From contig CM026574.1 in assembly GCA_015143295.1 (NCBI GenBank), forward strand, positions 15,068,938 to 15,132,937: DNA of 64,000 bases, in the 5' to 3' direction. How positions within the stretch are numbered: position 1 is the stretch's first letter; every line of letters starts with the position of its first letter. The notes under the pieces were generated by a model, which ran no database searches, was not told the DNA's origin, and saw only the letters and a program-made list of their open reading frames with translations. The translations under genes and the position numbers were made by a program. Of this stretch, positions 18,026 through 64,000 are shown one piece after another. The stretch comes from Tetracentron sinense. Its lineage: Eukaryota > Streptophyta > Magnoliopsida > Trochodendrales > Trochodendraceae.

Positions 18026-19731
18026 GAAAGAGATTTCATCATCTTTTCAAGAGAAATCCTCAAATCCACTACTAAGCAACTTGTTCATAGCAACGTGCAG
18101 TTCTCCATTGTTCTACTGCAGATCTTTAATCCTATCCAATAAGGTTGGCCTGATCATAATGTTAGCCAACAAAGCTCCAGACGCTCCAACACTGAAACCC
18201 GCATCAAGGCTAGACACTTCTTCAAGTAGCTTCCATTCTTGGACCATCAAGTGTGCCAAGAATCCAGTAGATCACCTACTTAGCGCATCTGCCATCACAT
18301 TTGCTTTCTCCGGGTGGTACTGGATAGAGTAATCATAATCCTTGAAGAATTTCACCCAACGGCGTTGCCTCAAATTTAGCTCTTTCTGTGAGAACAAATA
18401 CTTTAGACTCTTGTGATCGGTGAATACTTCAAAATGCGCACCGTACAAGTAGTGTCTTCAGATCTTGAGAACAAAGACTAATGCTGCCAACTCCAAATAA
18501 TGGGTAGGATAGTTCTTTTTATGGTCTTTCAACTGTCAAGAAGTATAGGCAATCACATTCCCGTGTTGCTAAGATCACAGCCTAACCCAATGAGTGAGGC
18601 ATCACTATACACCATGAATCCCCCACTACCGGATGGTACAGTGAAGATAAGAGTGGTGGTGAGACGCTTCTTCAACTTAAGGAACTCTTCTCACATTTCT
18701 CATTCCACTCGAACTTGGCGTTCTTTTGAGTTAGATGGGTGAGTGGCGCTGCCAAACTGGAAAATCCTTCCACAAATCTTCGATAATATCCAGCTAGGCC
18801 CAAGAAGCTTCGAACCTCTGTGACGCTCTTTGGCCCTTCCCCATCCTTCCACTGTTTTTATCTTAACAGAATCAACTGAAATTCCTTCTTCAAACACCAC
18901 ATGGCCTAGAAATGTTACATTTCCTAGTCAAAACTCGCACTTGTTGAGCTTAGCATATAGCTTATGCTCACAAAGTGTCTTCAGTATGACCCAGAGATGC
19001 ATCTCATGCTCCTTCTGTGTCTTGGAGTACACCAGAATATTATCCACAAACACAATCACAAATCAACCGAGGGTCGGCTTGAAGATTTTGTTCATGAGAT
19101 CCATAAACACTGCTGGAGCATTTGTCAAACCAAACGGCATGACTAGAAATTCATAATGCCCATAACGGGTTCGAAAAGCAGACTTGGAGACATCTCCTGC
19201 CTTTATCTTCAGCCGATGGTAGCCCAAACTTAAATCGATCTTGAAGATATACTTAGCTCCTTACAACTGATCAAACAAGTCATCGATCCTAGGCAAAGGA
19301 TATTTGTTCTTGATAGTGACCTTGTTTAGTTGCCGATAGTAGATGCACATCCTCATCAAACTATCCTTCTTCTTCACAAATAACACCGAAGCTCCCCAAG
19401 GTGATACACTTGGGCGAATGAATCTAATATTGAGCAACTCTTCAATCTGCTCCTTAAGCTCTTTCAGCTCTACTGGAGCCATCCTATATAGTGCATTGGA
19501 GATAAGTGTCGTACCCAGGGCTAATTCAATCACGAACTCCATTTCTCTATCAGGCGGCAAGCCCGATAAATCCTTTAGAAAGACATCCATGAATTCTTCT
19601 ACAACCGGGATACTTAAAGAATCTGGTACCTCCGAGGTAGTAAGACTTAGTGTCGTGAAATGAGCTAAGTCTTTCTTCTTCAACCCTTGGAAACAAAAAG
19701 GCGGCTCACTGATTGGTCTAAAGTTGACCAC
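18026..19731 (-). pseudogene. Gypsy reverse transcriptase and RNase H, inactivated
   Basis: RT begins about 19731: [18 protein letters not shown], then [19 protein letters not shown] and [10 protein letters not shown] stop follows LFDQL at about 19262 (TAA where CAA is expected). The catalytic box, minus strand near 19030-19060, reads FVDNILVYSK where the family has F/Y-V/I-D-D, so the second catalytic Asp is Asn. RNase H follows ([19 protein letters not shown], then ADALSR near 18270-18285). Several more stops lie between. The region cannot encode an active enzyme. Confidence 0.85.
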
Positions 19732-28253: not shown

Positions 28254-30618
28254 TTACATGCCATCCTTCTTTTGTTTCTTGATAAGGTCTGCAACTTTGG
28301 TGTAGATGTCCTCAGGAGGGTCTTCATCTTCTTTGTCTTGATCAGCTGCATCTTCATCTGAAGAAGGAAGGGATATGATTGGATAACCATTGGATTTACC
28401 CTTGGAAGGGGTTGCTTTGGGCTTTATGGGCTCCTTGCCCTTGGATTTGGAAGGTGTAGCTTGAGAAGGAGGGGATTGAGAAGAAGAGGCTCTAGTAGCC
28501 AAGCTGACTAGGAAGTGGTTGATCTTCTTTAGCTCATCAGTGGCTCTCAAAATGATGGAGGCTGACACTGAATCATGCTCAGCCATATCCAGTAGGAGCT
28601 TGCCTTGAGTCTTCAATTGAAGAGTAGAGGAATCCACTTGGCCTTGGATCACACTTGTTACTTTCCCCATCTTCATAAATTCTTCCATTTGATCTCCCTC
28701 CAATCTCTGAAGAAGGGATGTGACACTGTCAACTCTATTTTTGGTGACTGAAGAATCCATGTTAATAGTCCCCAAAACAGAATAGGTTGCATCAGCTCTC
28801 TCTTTTAGATCAGCATGGACAACAGCTAGAGATGCTTCAACAGATTCTGTCAAGGTCTGCACTTCCTTGGGGATGATGATCATCCCAATCTCAAGAGCTG
28901 AAAATCTGGTGGAAGTGGCTAACTAGAGGCTCTGGAAGCATTCCCTAGACTCTGACTAAATGGCAGCAATGCTTGCCCTGGTCTCAGCCATGAAGCAGAG
29001 TATGGAGGCTCTCATCTCCTCCTGAAAAGCCTACTGGCTCATCCTCATCTCTAGCTGAAAGTGCTCAAGACTGGAGGACATGGAGGCAATCTGCCCTACC
29101 ATGATGCTCAAATGCTCTTCTGATGCAGTTGGCCTACTGGGCACCTCATAAAACTGACCAGGGTCCTCAAAGTGAGGAGACACCTGTCTATGAGAGCTCT
29201 TTGGAACTTCTACAGCATCCACAAAATCTGACCAGTTAGGCATCTCATCCCTAGGGTGCTGCTCAGGGTCCTAAAAGCGGGAACTGACACCGTGATAGAA
29301 TCATTAAAGGACGGCGGAATAAAACTACGGCGGTTACCAACCGCAGTAATTTATTCATATAAGACAGCGGTTGTTATTAACCGCCGTTCATATCCGCCGC
29401 GATAGGAATCCCCGACAACTTATTCTTCGACGGGTCAACTTACTGTCGTGATACATTATAATGGCGGTAATTTTAGATAATACGGCGGTTTAGAACCTCC
29501 GTAAAAAAGCTCAAGTTTTGTAGTGTCTGCTAGGACTGAATCTGGCAGTTACTCAGCCTAGGGTTCCTCTTCTGGTGCTGAGTTTGGCTGCTGCTTAGGT
29601 TGTTGCTCTCCTGCTGGTGCTGCAGACAAGGAAGGGACAGAAGGAGTAGGAGCAGGAGTAGCGATGGATGGGGTAGATATAGGAGCTGAAGAACTGGAAG
29701 GAATGGTGGAGGACTGAGAGACAGAGGGTTTGGGAGTCCAAACCTTCTAGGTTTCATCCCAAATATAGCCCATTATTTGAATGGTTGCCTTGCTATATAT
29801 GGAGGAGTCATCAGGGGTTACAAAATCGGTTTGGGAAGAGAAATGGACATTGAAATGTCTAAAGATTTTAGTCAGGGCTTGACCGAAAGGAAGACACCCT
29901 GATTTTCTTTTGAAGGCATCCATACAGTGGACAATGATATAAGACAGATCTATGGGTGTGGAGGTCAAAATATACCACATAAGAAAGACATCAAAATATG
30001 TGAGATACTCTCTACCACCAGCTCTTGATACTAAATTATAGGTTATGATATAGTGGATGAGTCTAGATGTGAGGGTAAGGTCTTTAACCTTAGGTTGAAA
30101 GGGAGTGGTGAAATCTTGGCTAATGCACATCATTTTCAGTGCTTCTACCACATCAAATCCTTCATGTTTGGTCCACTGACCATTCACAAAGGTTTGAAGG
30201 GTACACTGAGAAATTTTAAGGATCGTGTGCAAGTTGTTGAGATGAAAAGAGATGTTTTTGCCTAAAACAAAAGATGTAATAAGAGATTCAGATTGATTAG
30301 AGTGAAAGTGAGTGCAGAATAGTCTAACTAACTCAGAGAACATAACTTCGTTGGATTCAAGGAAGGAGTCCCATTTAAAGGCAGAAAAAAAAGGGTTTTT
30401 ATAGGTTCAAGACCAAAGGCAAAGAGATTGAGAAAGTTAACAACTTTACCATATAAAGGGGAACGAGGCAAGAACTAATCTTTGAACAACTTCTCGTATT
30501 TTGGCTCTTTGAACTTCACTGGAACTGGCGCTGAGCCCGTAGCAAGTTCCTTCCCTTTTTCAGTTCTAGGTTTCTTCCTTGGCGGCTCTACTGAGGAATT
30601 CTTCATCCTTGGAGGCAT
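28254..30618 (-). pseudogene. SIRE-type third ORF (env-like / plant transposon protein domain), interrupted
   Basis: Minus strand. Starts with ATG at 30618 (MPPRMKNSSVEPPRKKPR), then FKEPKYEKLFKD, a stop, and in the same frame FLPRSPLYGKVVNFLNLF. The frame 30343-29747 is a helical domain (TLKISQCTL-like start, SRLIHYIITYNLVSRAGG, FGQALTKIFRHFNVHF), which I associate with the plant transposon protein domain found downstream of pol in SIRE elements. The C-terminal frame 28883-28254 is a coiled-coil-like region with a Ser/Lys/Pro-rich acidic tail (KKQKKDGM end). A CACTA fragment splits it at 29273-29525. Function unknown; older literature calls it env-like. Confidence 0.75.
29273..29525 (-). mobile_element. 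CACTA transposon end fragment inside the copia third ORF
   Basis: Read on the minus strand from 29525, it begins CACTACAAAACTTGAGC and continues with alternating ACCGCCGT/ACGGCGGT motifs. It matches the end at 59835 closely except for a deletion of roughly 130 bp. It stops abruptly at 29273 (CAGTTCCCGC), and no second inverted terminus is present. It is therefore a truncated end or a remnant of a deletion derivative. It interrupts a reading frame. Confidence 0.75.
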
Positions 30619-44935: not shown

Positions 44936-45480
44936 TGCAGGTACTTTAGAAACTTTCACAAGACCTACGCCAACCCATATTTTTTGTAAGTACTTTTGAT
45001 GGAAACAAGATTACCTCAGGTAACTACCCAAATAAATAGGTAACTTTATTTAATGTACTAACGTAAATTTTTAGAACAAATCTATTTCCATTATCTGATA
45101 TATTCCTTGATAATGTCTTTTTGCAGGTACTTTAGAAACTTTCATAATACCTACACCAACCTATATTTATTGCAAGTACTTTTGATGGTAACAAGATTAC
45201 CTCAGGGTGTGAGAAATTATGACAATAATATTTTTGTTTGTGCCATGTATATGTGTTTCTCTTTGTCACTTTTGTATATCCAATTATCATTGTTACAATT
45301 TTTGGGTTTTCTTGATGTACTTCTATATGGATATTCTTTTTTTATTGGTTGAAAGATTAAGAAGATTATACTTCTCAGTAGTAGCTTACAAAATTTTATA
45401 ATTTCAATTTGTTTGTTTTAGTTGTTATCTGGCAAATGATTAAGGGTCTGTAATGAGGGAAATTATTTGAAACCTCAAAC

Positions 45481-45760
45481 AAGGTGTACCTGGCTGCTAT
45501 ACCTATGTTCCATATTTATGGTATTTCTCTAATTACAACAAGATTATTGCTATTAGGATCTACAATTGTAGTGATGAGGCAGTTCGATCCAAATGAAATG
45601 GTGAGAGTTATAGATAGGTATAAAGTCACCCACATATCGATCGTTCCACCAATATCGATGGCCATGATGAGAGTGAAGACTGCATGTAGCAGTAACTTGG
45701 GTAATTTGAAACAGGTTTCTTGTGGAGCAACTCTATTCTTTTCCTTGAATGTGCTTGTTA
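45481..45760 (+). pseudogene. 4CL-like acyl-CoA ligase fragment
   Basis: The frame reads VYLAAIPMFHIYGISL, GSTIVVMRQFDPNEMVRVI, YKVTHISIVPPISMAMM and LKQVSCGA. This is the middle of the adenylate-forming domain of plant 4-coumarate:CoA ligase-like enzymes (PMFHIYG and VPP..A blocks, then SCGA before the next conserved motif). The P-loop (TSGTTG) upstream and everything after SCGA are missing, and flanks are non-coding. It is taken as a gene relic or captured exon, not a working gene. Confidence 0.7.
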
Positions 45761-45953
45761 AACCAAACAAAATATTATTTAAATGTATGAAATATCATTT
45801 TTAATTGCCAAGTGTGAAGTTAGCAATGTGCCCAACCTCAGTGGGCTAAAGATTTCCCTCCTATACTATTTCGTTAAAGTTTCAAGAGGTGACATTTTAA
45901 ACTAATAAATAATGAAGTTGTAAAGGATAAAATTCATAAATTTGTCTAGGTGT

Positions 45954-50398: not shown

Positions 50399-53300
50399 AT
50401 GTATGTGGTGAAGAGAGATGGTCGTCAAGAATCGGTGCATTTTGATAAGATCACGGCCCGTCTGAAGAAGTTAAGCTATGGGCTCAGTATTGACCACTGT
50501 GATCCGGTGCTTGTCGCTCAGAAGGTTTGTACTGGGGTCTACAAGGGCGTCACTACAAGCCAACTTGACGAACTGGCCGCTGAAACTGCCGCTGCCATGA
50601 CCACAAACCACCCCGATTACGCCTCGGTTAGTATACTTGTTTTTCGCTTTCTGGGTATGGTGGATTTGAGCCCTTTTGCTTGAATTGATTCTTGTGATTA
50701 CCGTTTGTACGATTTAAACTCCTCAATGTTATTGGGTTTTAACTTGTTTTGATGAGATTGAAGTTTGGAGAAAAGGGGTTGGCTTGATTTACTTGCTTAG
50801 ATGTTTGGTTGATGCAGCTGGCTGCAAGGATTGTTGTTTCAAATCTGCACAAGAATACAAAGAAATCATTTTCAGAGACGTAAGTGTTTTTTCTCGGTGT
50901 CATTTACTAGAAAAAAGTTAATTTTAATTTGGAAAACTTAGTTTGGGCGATTGATGCAGGATCAAAGACATGTATAGCCATTTTGATGGTAGATCTGGGC
51001 TGAAGGCTCCTCTTGTTGCAGATGATGTTTATGAAATAATCATCAAGGTACTCTCTCACTTACCATTCTTTAGAAGTTCCAGTATTCATATTAGTTTATC
51101 TGGGGCTAAATGCTGATTAGAACTCGTAGTGTGAACAGGTAAAAAAAAAGGAGTCCCTAGTGTGAATTGTTCTGTCTTATTTGATATGATCAATTGGTAA
51201 ATAGATCTATTGATAAAGATCTAGAACCCTGTTAATTTTTTTCTTTTTGCAGAAGTTCTGTAAGTACCTAAATGCAATTTTGACAAGGAATCATTAATTA
51301 GATATTTTATAATATAATGGGTATCTTCTGCCTTTGTTTAGGACCCTCTTGTCCTTGTTTTAGTGTATGCATTTTTTTTCTTATCCCTGATGGATATTTG
51401 GATTTGCTCTTTTGGGACATTAGGTTAATCTGACAAACACTTGTTAAAATCACAGAAACCCAAGAGATCTTATACATTTTCAGAATAGGAAAAGAAATGA
51501 GAGTTATATCAACACCTTTGTAAGAGATAGGATCATAGCCAATTGCAATTGAATTCAAGGGAATTCAATTGCATATCTGGCACACATGGATTCAATGAGG
51601 GAACAAAGGTGGAAAATTCAAAAATTGATTTTTTTTCTCTCTTCCAATCAACATGTGCCACATATGCAATTGAATTCCCTTGAATTCAATTGCAATTGGC
51701 TGTGACCATGTCTCCCTTTGTAATCCATGCCTTGGAAGTGTCATTTGGTGATTATAGTATCAGTTGGTACCATGTTGGCATCCCTTAGGGTGTGTTTGGT
51801 TGGTGAGAAAGTGGGTGAAAGAAAAGAAAGTAAAGTAAAAGAAAAGTGTGTTTCTTGCAAATCAAATGCAAAAAAAGTGCGAGAAAACACACTTTTCTTT
51901 TCCTTTCCCTCACTTTCTCGCCAAACGAATGCACCCTTAGAGTTAACTGTCACTGGGGAATGTATGGCTTGTTTATGGTGTCAAATTTTGGACTTTCACT
52001 TTCCAATGTTTTATCTTTAAACATGGCTAGATATAGTGAATGCAGAGTATCATTTATTATTTATTATCATTTTTTACTGTTTTTCATTTGGTACAGAATG
52101 CTGCACGGCTGGACAGTGAGATAATTTATGACAGAGACTTTGAATATGATTATTTTGGTTTTAAAACCCTTGAGAGGTCCTACCTCTTAAAGGTCCAAGG
52201 CAAAGTTGTAGAAAGGCCACAGCACATGTTGATGAGGGTTGCTGTTGGAATCCACAAGGATGACATTGAATCTGTGCTTAAAACATACCATTTGATGTCT
52301 CAACGATGGTTCACCCATGCATCTCCCACTCTTTTCAATGCAGGGACACCAAGACCTCAAGTATGCTGTGCATATTTTAGTGTTTACCCCATTTATTTGT
52401 TTATTTATTTTTGTAGTCTAATTTGATTTGGTTTGGCAGTTGAGTAGCTGCTTCCTTATTTGCATGAAAGATGACAGCATTGAGGGCATATATGATACTT
52501 TGAAGGAATGTGCTGTTATTAGCAAATCAGCTGGAGGAATTGGTGTTTCTATCCATAATATTCGTGCCACAAGCAGTTACATTCGTGGAACAAATGGGAC
52601 TTCCAATGGCATTGTTCCAATGTTACGGGTGTTCAACGACACTGCCCGTTATGTCGATCAAGGGGGAGGCAAGAGGAAGGGTATTTTTGTCTTGTCTCAG
52701 ACTCATTCTGTGTTAACATGCTTCTGTTATATAAATCCACAAATTGGCATTAATACATGCTTGTATTTATTGTATGTTTGCCGTGTTTTGTTTTGTTCTA
52801 ATTGTGTAATTTATTGGAAGACATGTTTTAACATTAGTATTTATGATGCATGTAGGTGCTTTTGCTGTGTATTTGGAGCCATGGCACGCTGATGTGTTTG
52901 AGTTTCTAGATCTCAGAAAAAACCATGGAAAGGTATGGCTCAGTGGGCTCATGTGCTCAAATGCAATTACATTATGCATGTGATGCATAAATTATCCATC
53001 TGTTCTGTTAAAAGTAGTCAGTTTCACTTTGCTTTTATCTCTATATCATAAGCAATAATAGTTTCTGATTTTCACACTATGGTCAGGCTACTAATTAGCA
53101 TCAATAATGTTTAATTTGTTACTCTCTTACAGGAAGAAAACCGGGCTCGAGATCTATTTTATGCTCTCTGGGTTCCTGACCTCTTTATGGAAAGAGTTCA
53201 AGGTGATGGGCAATGGTCTTTGTTTTGTCCCAATGAATCTCCAGGCTTGGCTGATTGTTGGGGTGAAGAATTTGACAAACTATACACCCAATATGAAAGA

Positions 53301-59834: not shown

Positions 59835-60334
59835 CACTACAAAATTTGAGCTTTTTTACTACGGTTCTAAACCGCTGTACTATCTAAAATTACCGTCGTC
59901 ATAATATATCACGGTGGTAAGTTGACCCGTCAAAGAATATGTTATCGGGGATTCCTATCGCGGCGGATATGAACGACGGTTAATAACAACCGCCGTCTTA
60001 TATGAATAAATTACTGCGGTTGGTAACCACCATAGTTTTATTTTTAATCTCATCATTAAAATCACTTGTTACGTCATAAAGTAACCGCCGTTATATATAA
60101 TTCATATCACGGCGGTTCAAACCGCCGTTCTTTAGATTTCATTTTACGGCATTTTATCCCACCGTCCTTTATTGATTCTATCACGACGTCAGTTCCCGCC
60201 GTTATATATCAAAAATCTATGGCGGTTGCAACCGCCGTAAGACCTTAAAGCGGATCAGAACCGCCGTAATATTATTTTAATAAATTAAATTATTATTAAT
60301 ATCATGGTTGTTTAAAACCGCCGCCATATTAAAA

Positions 60335-60782
60335 ATATTTAAAAAAAAAGAATTTATTTTTGCAAAAATTTTGTTTTTTTTCCTTGTATTATCTGTACCT
60401 GTGAGCAATATAAATCTAAATAAACATGTATTGTACCTGTAACAATATCTAATTCCAACTAAGAATAAACAATTCATGTAATTAAAAAAATGCCTCAAAC
60501 AAGCAATATCAAAATTATATATACATGCCCATAAAAGTGTTGTCATAAAAAGTATACATAATGAAAAAGAAAAGAAAAGAAACAAAAAGTAGCCATCTAA
60601 CTCTCGCCTGGTGATGGTTGAAAACCCGATATGTGCGTGCTACCGGCTCCCTCCTACAAAAAAAAAAAAAAACACAATTTATTAATCTTTTTTCTAAATG
60701 AGAAAATTTGAGAATGTAATAATTAATAAATATACAAAGATCTAAACTCATCTCAAAATATTAATAGTTTGCAGTATTATAT
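60335..60782. other. CACTA interior between subterminal repeats and the 179-bp array
   Basis: AT-rich sequence with a short G+C-richer stretch (60598-60655). No transposase motif recognised. Confidence 0.45.
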
Positions 60783-61856
60783 CGGTCTAAACCTACATCG
60801 TCCCACCATTTTTAAACCGGGGGTTGGATTTCGATTCCGTTTATTCTAACGCGTGTATTTCAATACATCCTAAGTGTTGGAGTTGGTTTCGAACGAATCC
60901 GAGGCTGTATGCCTGATATGGGCGCTGAGACGGCCGAAATCCATACTTGGATACTGTACTTCGGCCTAAACCTACATCGTCCCACTAATTCCAAACTGGG
61001 GGTCGGATTTTGATCATGTTTCTTCTAACGCGTGTATTTCAATACATCATAAGTGTTAGAGTTGGTTTCGAGCGAATCCGAGGCCGTATGCCTGATATGG
61101 GCGCCGAGACGGCCGAAATCCATACTTGGATACTATACTTCGGCCTAAACCTACATCGTCCCACCATTTTCAAACCGGGGGTCGGATTTTGATCTCATTT
61201 TTTCTAACGCGTGTATTTCAGTACATTTTAAGTGTTGGAGTTGGTTTCGAGAGAATCCAAGGCCGTATTCCCGATATGGGCGCCAAGACGGTCGAAATCC
61301 ATACTTGGATACTATACTTCGGCCTAAACCTACATCGTCCCACCATTTCTAAACCGGGGGTTAGATTTTGATCCCGTTTCTTCTAACGTGTGTATTTCAG
61401 TACATCCTATGTGTTGGAGTTAGTTTCAAGCGAATCCGTTGCCGTATGCCCGATATGGGCGCCGAGACGTCCGAAATCCATACTTGGATACTATACTTTG
61501 GCCTAAACCTACATCGTCCCACTAATTCCAAACCGGGGGTCGGATTTCGATCCCGTTTCTTCTAACACGTGTATTTCAATACATCCTAAGTGTTGGAGTT
61601 GGTTTCGAGCGAATTTGAGGCTGTATGCCCGATATGGGCGCCGAGATGGCCGAAATCTATACTTTGATACTATACTTCGGCCTAAACCTATATCGTCCCA
61701 CCAATTCCAAACCGGGAGTCGGATTTTAATCACATTTCTTCTAACGCGTGTATTTCAATACATCCTAAGTGTTGGAGTTGGTTTCGAGCGAATCCGAGGC
61801 CGTATGTCTGATATGGGCACCAAGACGGCCGAAATCCATAATTGGATACTATACTT
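60783..61856. repeat. Satellite-like array: six 179-bp monomers
   Basis: Monomers start (CGGCCTAAACCTACATCG-type anchor) at 60783, 60962, 61141, 61320, 61499 and 61678, with a seventh fragment at 61857. The spacing is exactly 179 bp each time, and monomers differ by scattered substitutions. Each contains GATATGGGCGCCGAGACGG and TAACGCGTGTATTTCA. Short ORFs across the array are by-products of the repetition. Confidence 0.95.
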
Positions 61857-61879
61857 CAGCCTAATCCATACTTGGATAC

Positions 61880-62215
61880 TACACACCACTACCCATCCAC
61901 CACCACTAGAACCATCACTACCACCACCCATCCACCACTAATACAAACCATCCTTCCACCACCACTTTCACCACCCAACCACCACTAACATACCACCACC
62001 CATCCACCACCACTAGTACCACCCAACCACCACTAACACACCACCACCCATCCACCGCCACTAGCACTACCACTACCACCACTCATCCACCATCACTAGC
62101 ACCACCCAACCACCACTAACACACTTCATCCACCACCACTTGCACCACCACTACCACCACTCATCCACCACCACTAGCACCACCCAACCACCACTAACGC
62201 ACCACCACCCAGCAA
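61880..62215. repeat. CCA-rich minisatellite, left array
   Basis: Irregular repeats of CACCACCCATCCACCACCA and CACTAACACACCACC units. A similar array starts at 63935, so the two bracket the SUVR inverted repeat and the 82-bp repeats. Confidence 0.9.
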
Positions 62216-62640
62216 ATCTTGCACTGCTTATTACAACCGCATTTATGAAAGAATATACTTCATAAATTTTCTTACTAAATGACCATTGCAAGAGTCAGGA
62301 ATATCCTCATTCTTGGGCTGCTCATACGGGCACTCTTTACAATAAAAGGTCCGATGATATTGAGGCTCGTGATTCCTAGATATACATTCTTTCAGAACAT
62401 TTTCCTGGACCAGGCCTTCATGTCAGTATGTACACGTAATTGATGATGATAACATACGGTGACCAGAACAATACTTATACAATATTATTCACCTTTGAAT
62501 TTTGTCATTAACATCGTGGAGGAATCCGTGCTACGTACTGAAGGACCACAAAAATACCTGAATTTGAATAGGTGAAAATTTGGATTCATTTCTCGACTTA
62601 TCCCTTTCACTAGTACCGTTTGCGACAACTTCATTTGGCT
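62216..62640 (-). pseudogene. Captured SUVR histone-methyltransferase fragment, left arm (inverted copy)
   Basis: This arm is the inverted, diverged copy of 62805-63213. Read on the minus strand it shows the same DNA landmarks (AAAGAGTGCCCGTATGAGCA, GAATGAGGATATTCCTGAC) and the same SUVR-like coding pattern, with more damage. It lies next to the CCA-rich array. It cannot make protein; its interest lies in pairing with the other arm. Confidence 0.8.
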
Positions 62641-62804
62641 ATCCATTCGAAGAACTGTCTGGAATTTAAAAATTACCGATTTGAGCGACTATATCTTCAA
62701 CTAATTTTATACCTGGATTTAGACTAGGTTCTTGGAAGTCAGCCCGATTTGGGCACCAAGATGTCATTTCTTCTATCTTTGAATGGTTTAGATGACCTTC
62801 ATCC

Positions 62805-63213
62805 CAAAAAGGAAGTTGTCGGGAACGGTAATGGAGATAAGGATAAGAAGAGAACGAAATGAAAAAGTTCAGGTTATTCAAATTCATGTAGTTTGGTGGT
62901 TGTTCAGTAACACGGAACCCTCTACGATGTTAACGACATAACCAAAGATGAATATTGTTGTTCACGTTGTTTTGATCATTGTATGTCATCATCATTCATT
63001 CCGTGTGCATGCGCACGTGAAGGTCTGGTCAAGGAAGAGGTTCTAAAAGAATGTATATCTATGAATCACGAATCTCAACATCACCAGACTTTTTATTGTA
63101 AAGAGTGTCCGCATGAGCAGTCCAAGAATGAGGACATTCCTGACGGTCATTTGGTAAGAAAATTTATCAAATATCTTCTTCCATAAATGTGGTTGTAATA
63201 AGCAGTACAAGAA
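62805..63213 (+). pseudogene. Captured SUVR histone-methyltransferase fragment, right arm (pre-SET region)
   Basis: Conceptual translation gives DVNDITKDE, a Cys-rich CCSRCFDHC, SSSFIPCACAR, then KEECISM-like and QTFYCKECPHEQSKNEDIP, GHLVRKFIK, and, after a frame slip, KCGCNKQ and NRVVYRGI. This ordered Cys pattern and the GHLVRKFIKEC..KCGC motif are those of the pre-SET zinc cluster of plant SUVR1/2/4-type SET-domain proteins. Introns typical of the host gene are not evident. A stop near 63184 and missing blocks mark it as a dead fragment. The SET domain is absent. Confidence 0.8.
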
Positions 63214-63404
63214 CCGGGTGGTATATCGAGGCATAACATGCAATCTGCAAGTCAAAGTTTATCTTTGTTCTGAATTTAGTGTTAGCTAGTGTTGGAGTTA
63301 CATCTGCACTTTTTGATACCCGATTTGGGCACCGAAAAGCCGAATTCCCGATCTGGAAGCTAACCCTTAAGTTTTAACGTTAGGAAATCTCTAATTAATC
63401 TAAC

Positions 63405-63830
63405 TAAATCTCGGATTTGTAGAGTATAGTGTTCCAACTCACGAAAGTGAGGTATCTTTATCACTAACACATGCTAATTAAGCAATCACATATATTACAG
63501 ATTTTGCAAGGTATAGAGTTCAACTCACAAAACTAAGGTTCATCCTTCACTAACATACTAACTAAATAGGTATAAGATTCAGATTTTGCAAGGTAAAGTG
63601 TTCCAACTTATGAAAATGAGGTATTTCCATTACTAACATACTAACTAAATAGGTCCAAGATTCAAATTTTGCAAGGTAAAGTATTCCAACTTATGAAAAT
63701 GAGGTATTTTCATTACTAACATACTAACTAAATAGGTCTAAGATTCAGATTTGCAGAGTAAAGTGTTCGAACTTATGAAAATAAGGTATGTCCATTACTA
63801 ACATATTTAACTAAATAGGTCTAAATTTTG
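63405..63830. repeat. ~82-bp tandem repeat, five copies
   Basis: Anchors TTTTGCAAGGTAAAGTG or close variants occur near 63416, 63502, 63584, 63667 and 63750. Each unit ends CATACTAACTAAATAGGT; the first unit is the most diverged. Non-coding. Confidence 0.92.
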
Positions 63831-63934
63831 GTGAGGCTGCTGGCTAAGAATGCTCTTAGTACTAAAGAATGACAGATTTTTTTTTTTGGCAATTACATTC
63901 AAGGTTACATTTGACATATTACACAATAATAACA

Positions 63935-64000
63935 CAACCACTACCACCACCCATTACCACCACCACCACTACCACCCATCCACCACCACTACCAGCATTA
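63935..64000. repeat. CCA-rich minisatellite, right array (continues past the window)
   Basis: CACTACCACCACCCATTACC followed by further ACC triplets, the same type as 61880-62215. Confidence 0.9.

Follow-up and report, generated by a model that had tools for sequence, protein, structure and literature searches.

The question raised by this locus is why a transposon of Tetracentron sinense carries two facing copies of a piece of a plant SUVR histone-methyltransferase gene, and whether a hairpin RNA read from them would act on the silencing machinery of the host or mainly on the element itself. The window, i.e., the whole stretch of DNA that was analyzed, comprises 64,000 nucleotides of contig CM026574.1, and all positions are counted from its first letter. 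The cassette and its surroundings consist of the following features:

59835..64000, no strand assigned: CACTA transposon, left part, with the right end taken to lie beyond the window
59835..60335, no strand assigned: element end and adjoining subterminal part, carrying ACCGCCGT-type repeats
60782..61864, plus strand: tandem array of a 179-bp unit, 6.1 copies
61884..62209, plus strand: CCA-rich array adjoining arm A, with the junction ACCACCC common to the SUVR sequence of arm B
62204..62695, minus strand: arm A, SUVR fragment in minus-strand reading, with stops and a frame break
62693..62749, minus strand: loop with the inner edge, probably additional coding sequence of SUVR contiguous with arm A (RADFQEPSLNPGIKLVED), judged by its score against shuffles
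62746..63222, plus strand: arm B, SUVR fragment in plus-strand reading
63223..63256, plus strand: continuation of arm B with no partner in arm A (profile match 63179-63256, E 1e-08), after which, following NLQV, the SUVR homology stops
63416..63824, plus strand: tandem array of an 83-bp unit, between arm B and the second CCA-rich array
63930..64000, plus strand: second CCA-rich array near the window end, start approximate

In a strict alignment, 62204-62636 matched 63222-62808 with 340 of 414 ungapped columns identical (82.1%) and 20 gap columns. The alignment scored 397, whereas 200 mononucleotide shuffles of one side reached 30 at most. The two inverted arms claimed by the first-pass annotation were thus borne out at 62204-62636 and 62808-63222, and they are alignable over far more than about 100 bp. 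Under a looser alignment, the arms reached out to 62695 and 62746, respectively (377 of 460 positions identical, 49 gap columns, K2P distance of 0.208). This leaves a loop of approximately 50 nt, and the 164-bp spacer given earlier had to be shortened accordingly. The structure of the cassette is secure. When the whole window was scanned for inverted pairs (seed 14, length of at least 60, distance of up to 5 kb), three were found, two of which were the SUVR cassette. The third pair, at 51524-51714, has 84-nt arms that are 85% complementary and a 23-nt loop; it is a small foldback transposon by appearance and sits between what we take to be exons of a ribonucleotide reductase large-subunit gene.

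The origin of the arms was traced with the translation of arm B as protein query (62875-63174, stops written as X), for which 10 of 17 candidate proteins passed E <= 0.01 and the lowest E-value was 1.6e-16. With tblastn, both arms were matched by all 10 SUVR proteins when these were run against the window, and a profile of the 10 sequences gave E-values of 2.6e-30 for the plus-arm frame and 2.7e-25 for the minus-arm frame. The arm B match covers approximately residues 475-694 of the Davidia protein with internal gaps, which corresponds to the pre-SET region together with the sequence preceding it. Over 51-54 residues, arm A was 52-65% and arm B 59-75% identical to seven SUVRs, three SUVRs of other length being left out of this comparison; the same seven share a mean identity of 76% among themselves. 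Judged by these similarities, both arms stem from the pre-SET part of a SUVR gene, probably one of the SUVR1/2 type, and the pre-SET origin proposed at first sight was confirmed. Pfam returned nothing above the cut-off for the arm translations and no pre-SET domain, the only weak matches being DUF629 (E 0.062) and Zn_ribbon_RPB9 (E 0.12), and a PDB sequence search with the same translations returned nothing at E 1; the family was therefore identified through its full-length relatives. Three of the 10 matched proteins are named SUVR1 or SUVR2 (Davidia and two Olea) and none SUVR4, while the remaining matches are SET-domain or hypothetical plant proteins, with three unnamed. By the names of these three matches, the source looks to be of the SUVR1/2 type.

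A search for short relatives gave one match among 3 candidates, a protein of 137 aa from a 2.1-kb contig (P0011), which was considered as another captured copy and rejected. It retains a 10-residue block that is missing from the arms and is therefore read as an ordinary gene exon. Among the literature matches listed for SUVR, CACTA, and inverted repeats, no title pointed to a captured SUVR gene, and a captured SUVR in a CACTA element appears to be unreported within these matches.

The short sequence between the arms probably belongs to the same gene. Its minus-strand reading, RADFQEPSLNPGIKLVED, resembles a part of the SUVR protein located upstream of the region covered by the arms, and the mean best minus-frame score against the upstream parts of the 10 SUVRs was 38.2, compared with a maximum of 27.6 in 300 shuffles. 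This reading also fits an extension of arm A in both orientation and position. However, the spacer was unmatched in three of the 10 SUVRs (P0003, P0008, P0010), was weak in tblastn (P0002 E 0.93, P0004 E 0.39, P0009 E 0.31), and reached a profile score against the SUVRs of 0.1 bits, so its SUVR derivation is graded as probable only. A remnant of the 179-bp unit competes with this reading, at a score of 37 that was reached by none of 300 shuffles (maximum 35). The SUVR reading is preferred because it stands further above its own shuffles. As a continuation of arm A, the spacer would carry this arm further to the 5' side of the gene, whereas arm B extends to the 3' side (NLQV, 63256).

The damage within the two arms bears on the order of events. 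Arm B is without approximately 43 residues and without a block of approximately 10 residues of the SUVRs, and arm A aligns across both places with no such gap. A regular expression located both motifs of the longer stretch in 7 of 10 SUVRs, with 42-46 residues between them, and the 10-residue block in 8 of 10. In addition, the frame is disrupted after RKFIK in both arms, where all 10 SUVRs read RKFI.ECW..CGC. Since both arms share the deletions and the frame break, the decay of the fragment preceded its inversion. Arm B and P0011 both depart from the SUVR family at NLQV, which fits the end of an exon, and from this we infer a capture from genomic DNA. Arm A, on its outer side, ends at ACCACCC, a motif common to the CCA array and the SUVR sequence. 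At substitution rates of 6.5e-9 to 1.3e-8 per site and year, as used for plant genomes, the K2P distance of the arms would amount to about 8 to 16 million years, and the duplication would be older in a slow woody plant. Together with the identity of approximately 82%, this distance supports the age that had been ascribed to the arms.

The left terminus of the host element, CACTACAAAATTTGAG, lies at 59835. The sequence from 59835 to 60042 is 90% identical to 29525-29318, the flanks are different, and both matches begin at the same CACTACAAAA. As the 8-mer CACTACAA by itself occurs at five sites in the window on both strands, it is the second copy at 29525 that carries weight for the terminus at 59835. 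This copy belongs to a piece of approximately 250 bp of the same CACTA family (29275-29525), which ends in TTGTAGTG, lies in unrelated surroundings without the cassette, and supports the terminus. Within 59835-60335 fall 6 of the 7 occurrences of AACCGCCG in the window and 5 of the 6 occurrences of ACCGCCGT, whereas the reverse-strand forms are not concentrated there (1 of 3 each for CGGCGGTT and ACGGCGGT). When the whole window was scanned for pairs of termini with a 3-bp duplication, 59835 remained without a partner and the only pair lay elsewhere (18603-19493); the right end is accordingly assumed to be past 64000. The six frames of 59835-64000 gave no Pfam domain at E 0.1, and the remainder of the element is outside the window. 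On the end motif at 59835, the second copy, and the subterminal repeats, the host element is read as a CACTA transposon, in agreement with the context first assigned to the cassette. The position between CCA-rich arrays was likewise found as described, with arrays at 61884-62209 and from approximately 63930 onward; the 83-bp array also intervenes. Beside arm B, a degenerate remnant of the 179-bp unit may occupy 63288-63404, with a score of 46 that none of 300 shuffles attained (their maximum being 44).

A transcript of the cassette is predicted to fold with an energy of -514.2 kcal/mol on the plus strand and -509.3 kcal/mol on the minus strand, compared with -239.5 +/- 8.5 kcal/mol when the plus strand was dinucleotide-shuffled 20 times. 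The predicted fold contains 369 arm-to-arm pairs, and the longest perfect run between the arms is 17 nt. When 489 windows of 21 columns were inspected, none was perfect, 25 contained no more than one mismatch or gap, and 138 no more than three. The 49 substitutions between the arms in 62884-63171 are distributed over the SUVR-frame codon positions as 16/16/17 (p=0.98), and of 46 transitions, 24 produce a G:U pair if the plus strand is transcribed and 22 if the minus strand is (p=0.88). These two tests show no sign of selection for coding or for pairing since the duplication, at a low power of 49 and 46 sites with which weak selection would escape. The outcome of both tests favors a decaying by-product. 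The arms diverge unevenly, with values between 8.6% and 28.4% in six bins (p=0.017), and least in the outer, conserved cysteine-rich part. Gene conversion or a retained function may lie behind this pattern, the one result that is compatible with a retained region and that speaks against the decay reading.

We consider it reasonably probable that the cassette is an ageing hairpin, any small RNAs of which act mainly on the element itself. A CACTA transposon captured a piece of a SUVR1/2-type host gene, probably from genomic DNA, and this piece lost its coding capacity through deletions and a change of frame. Inverted copying came next, probably by a fold-back event, which would give a palindrome with the unshared 5' end of arm A as its loop. 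The 3' end of arm A may then have been lost at the short motif shared with the array. If transcribed, the locus would form an imperfect hairpin of approximately 1 kb that Dicer-like enzymes could cut, and the resulting small RNAs would chiefly add to the silencing of the element in cis, while the arms would now be drifting neutrally. Against this reading, it leaves the origin of the captured piece from a silencing gene as an unexplained coincidence.

To our knowledge, few transposons are known to turn small RNAs on the silencing machinery of their host, among them miR820 and TART-A, the latter a retrotransposon. Mu killer of maize resembles the cassette as a long inverted repeat and is said to be a source of hairpin RNA, but it reportedly targets the transposon's own gene, whereas the arms of the cassette match a host gene. 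The rice miR820 family resides inside CACTA transposons. Its precursors show a likeness to portions of OsDRM2, a gene that miR820 negatively regulates; the small RNAs are 22 and 24 nt long, and five CACTA copies are given for Nipponbare (Nosaka et al. 2012, PMC3459959). The likeness is that here, too, a fold-back resembling part of a host silencing gene was found inside a CACTA element, the function of the gene being assigned by homology to Arabidopsis SUVR2, which has a part in the silencing of some RdDM targets and of many loci that are independent of RdDM (PMC4260354). In contrast, miR820 is a small RNA with demonstrated repression of OsDRM2, whereas the cassette concerns a SUVR1/2-type gene, has arms of more than 400 nt, and was seen in one copy. 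The cassette thus looks closest to miR820 in architecture and kind of source gene, a precedent that the first-pass annotation did not name and that makes the hairpin idea more credible in kind. Ellison and colleagues described that Drosophila TART-A captured part of nxf2 and proposed a piRNA repression of nxf2 (Ellison et al. 2020, PMC7785250). The cassette shares with it the transposon carrying a silencing-gene piece and the proposed repression via small RNAs; however, TART-A is a telomeric element of Drosophila that would act through the piRNA pathway, and no inverted repeat is mentioned in the abstract of that article. The CACTA elements of PMC8978399 carry captured host gene pieces and tandem arrays as well, but an inverted duplication of the captured piece is not described in the excerpt of that work. 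In maize transposons, miRNA-like structures correlate with small RNAs and methylation, according to the abstract of PMC10760457.

If the miR820 precedent is taken literally, small RNAs from the hairpin would lower the expression of the host SUVR1/2-type gene and thereby weaken the silencing of the element. The layout shared with miR820, in which a CACTA element carries a fold-back similar to a silencing gene of the host (PMC3459959), the very stable predicted hairpin, and the low divergence of the outer arm region are consistent with such a counter-defence. We nevertheless regard it as unlikely, as a bias that would preserve pairing is absent (24 vs. 22), no perfect 21-mer exists between the arms, and a single cassette copy was seen within the window. 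The cassette, with its unevenly diverged arms, could also be a young or failed microRNA locus, in which an inverted duplication of the target gene was becoming a MIRNA gene and a small stretch was retained, as in the inverted duplication model of plant miRNA genes (outlined in PMC3237417). With no short stretch clearly distinct from the rest and no Rfam family at gathering score anywhere in the window, this origin is improbable.

Two further readings make less of the hairpin. The gene piece may serve as camouflage that shields the element, since its silencing would harm the host gene, and the inversion would then be incidental. This model is described in PMC8978399 and PMC13317346, the former of which reports that some CACTA elements carry captured pieces of genes and that others contain satellite arrays; however, an inverted repeat is expected to raise the output of small RNAs and not to conceal the element, which makes camouflage very improbable here. 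Arm B could instead give rise to a short pre-SET peptide interfering with SUVR proteins; a stop-free frame of 91 codons is present at 62911-63183. Both arms are frame-broken before the last cysteines, though, a codon-position bias between them is absent, and the peptide yields no Pfam match above the cut-off, so that this idea is scarcely credible.

Compared with these alternatives, the ageing hairpin acting mainly in cis remains our preferred reading, and that a CACTA lineage independently evolved a long-hairpin RNA weapon against a second silencing component, of the SUVR1/2 type, seems quite unlikely. If it were true, the attack on the silencing machinery would be a recurrent strategy of CACTA elements and not a single case from rice. 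Another fold-back of this kind in a CACTA element, built from a different silencing gene, would make it possible to ask whether the strategy recurs.

Two smaller observations concern the left part of the element and the DNA outside of it. On the minus strand, 60604-60654 follows a poly-pyrimidine tract and resembles, by eye, the terminal exon of an element gene. Further to the left, 45457-45801 is a 4-coumarate-CoA-ligase-like exon, matched by 33 proteins at E <= 1e-20 with a best identity of 66% (Papaver nudicaule).
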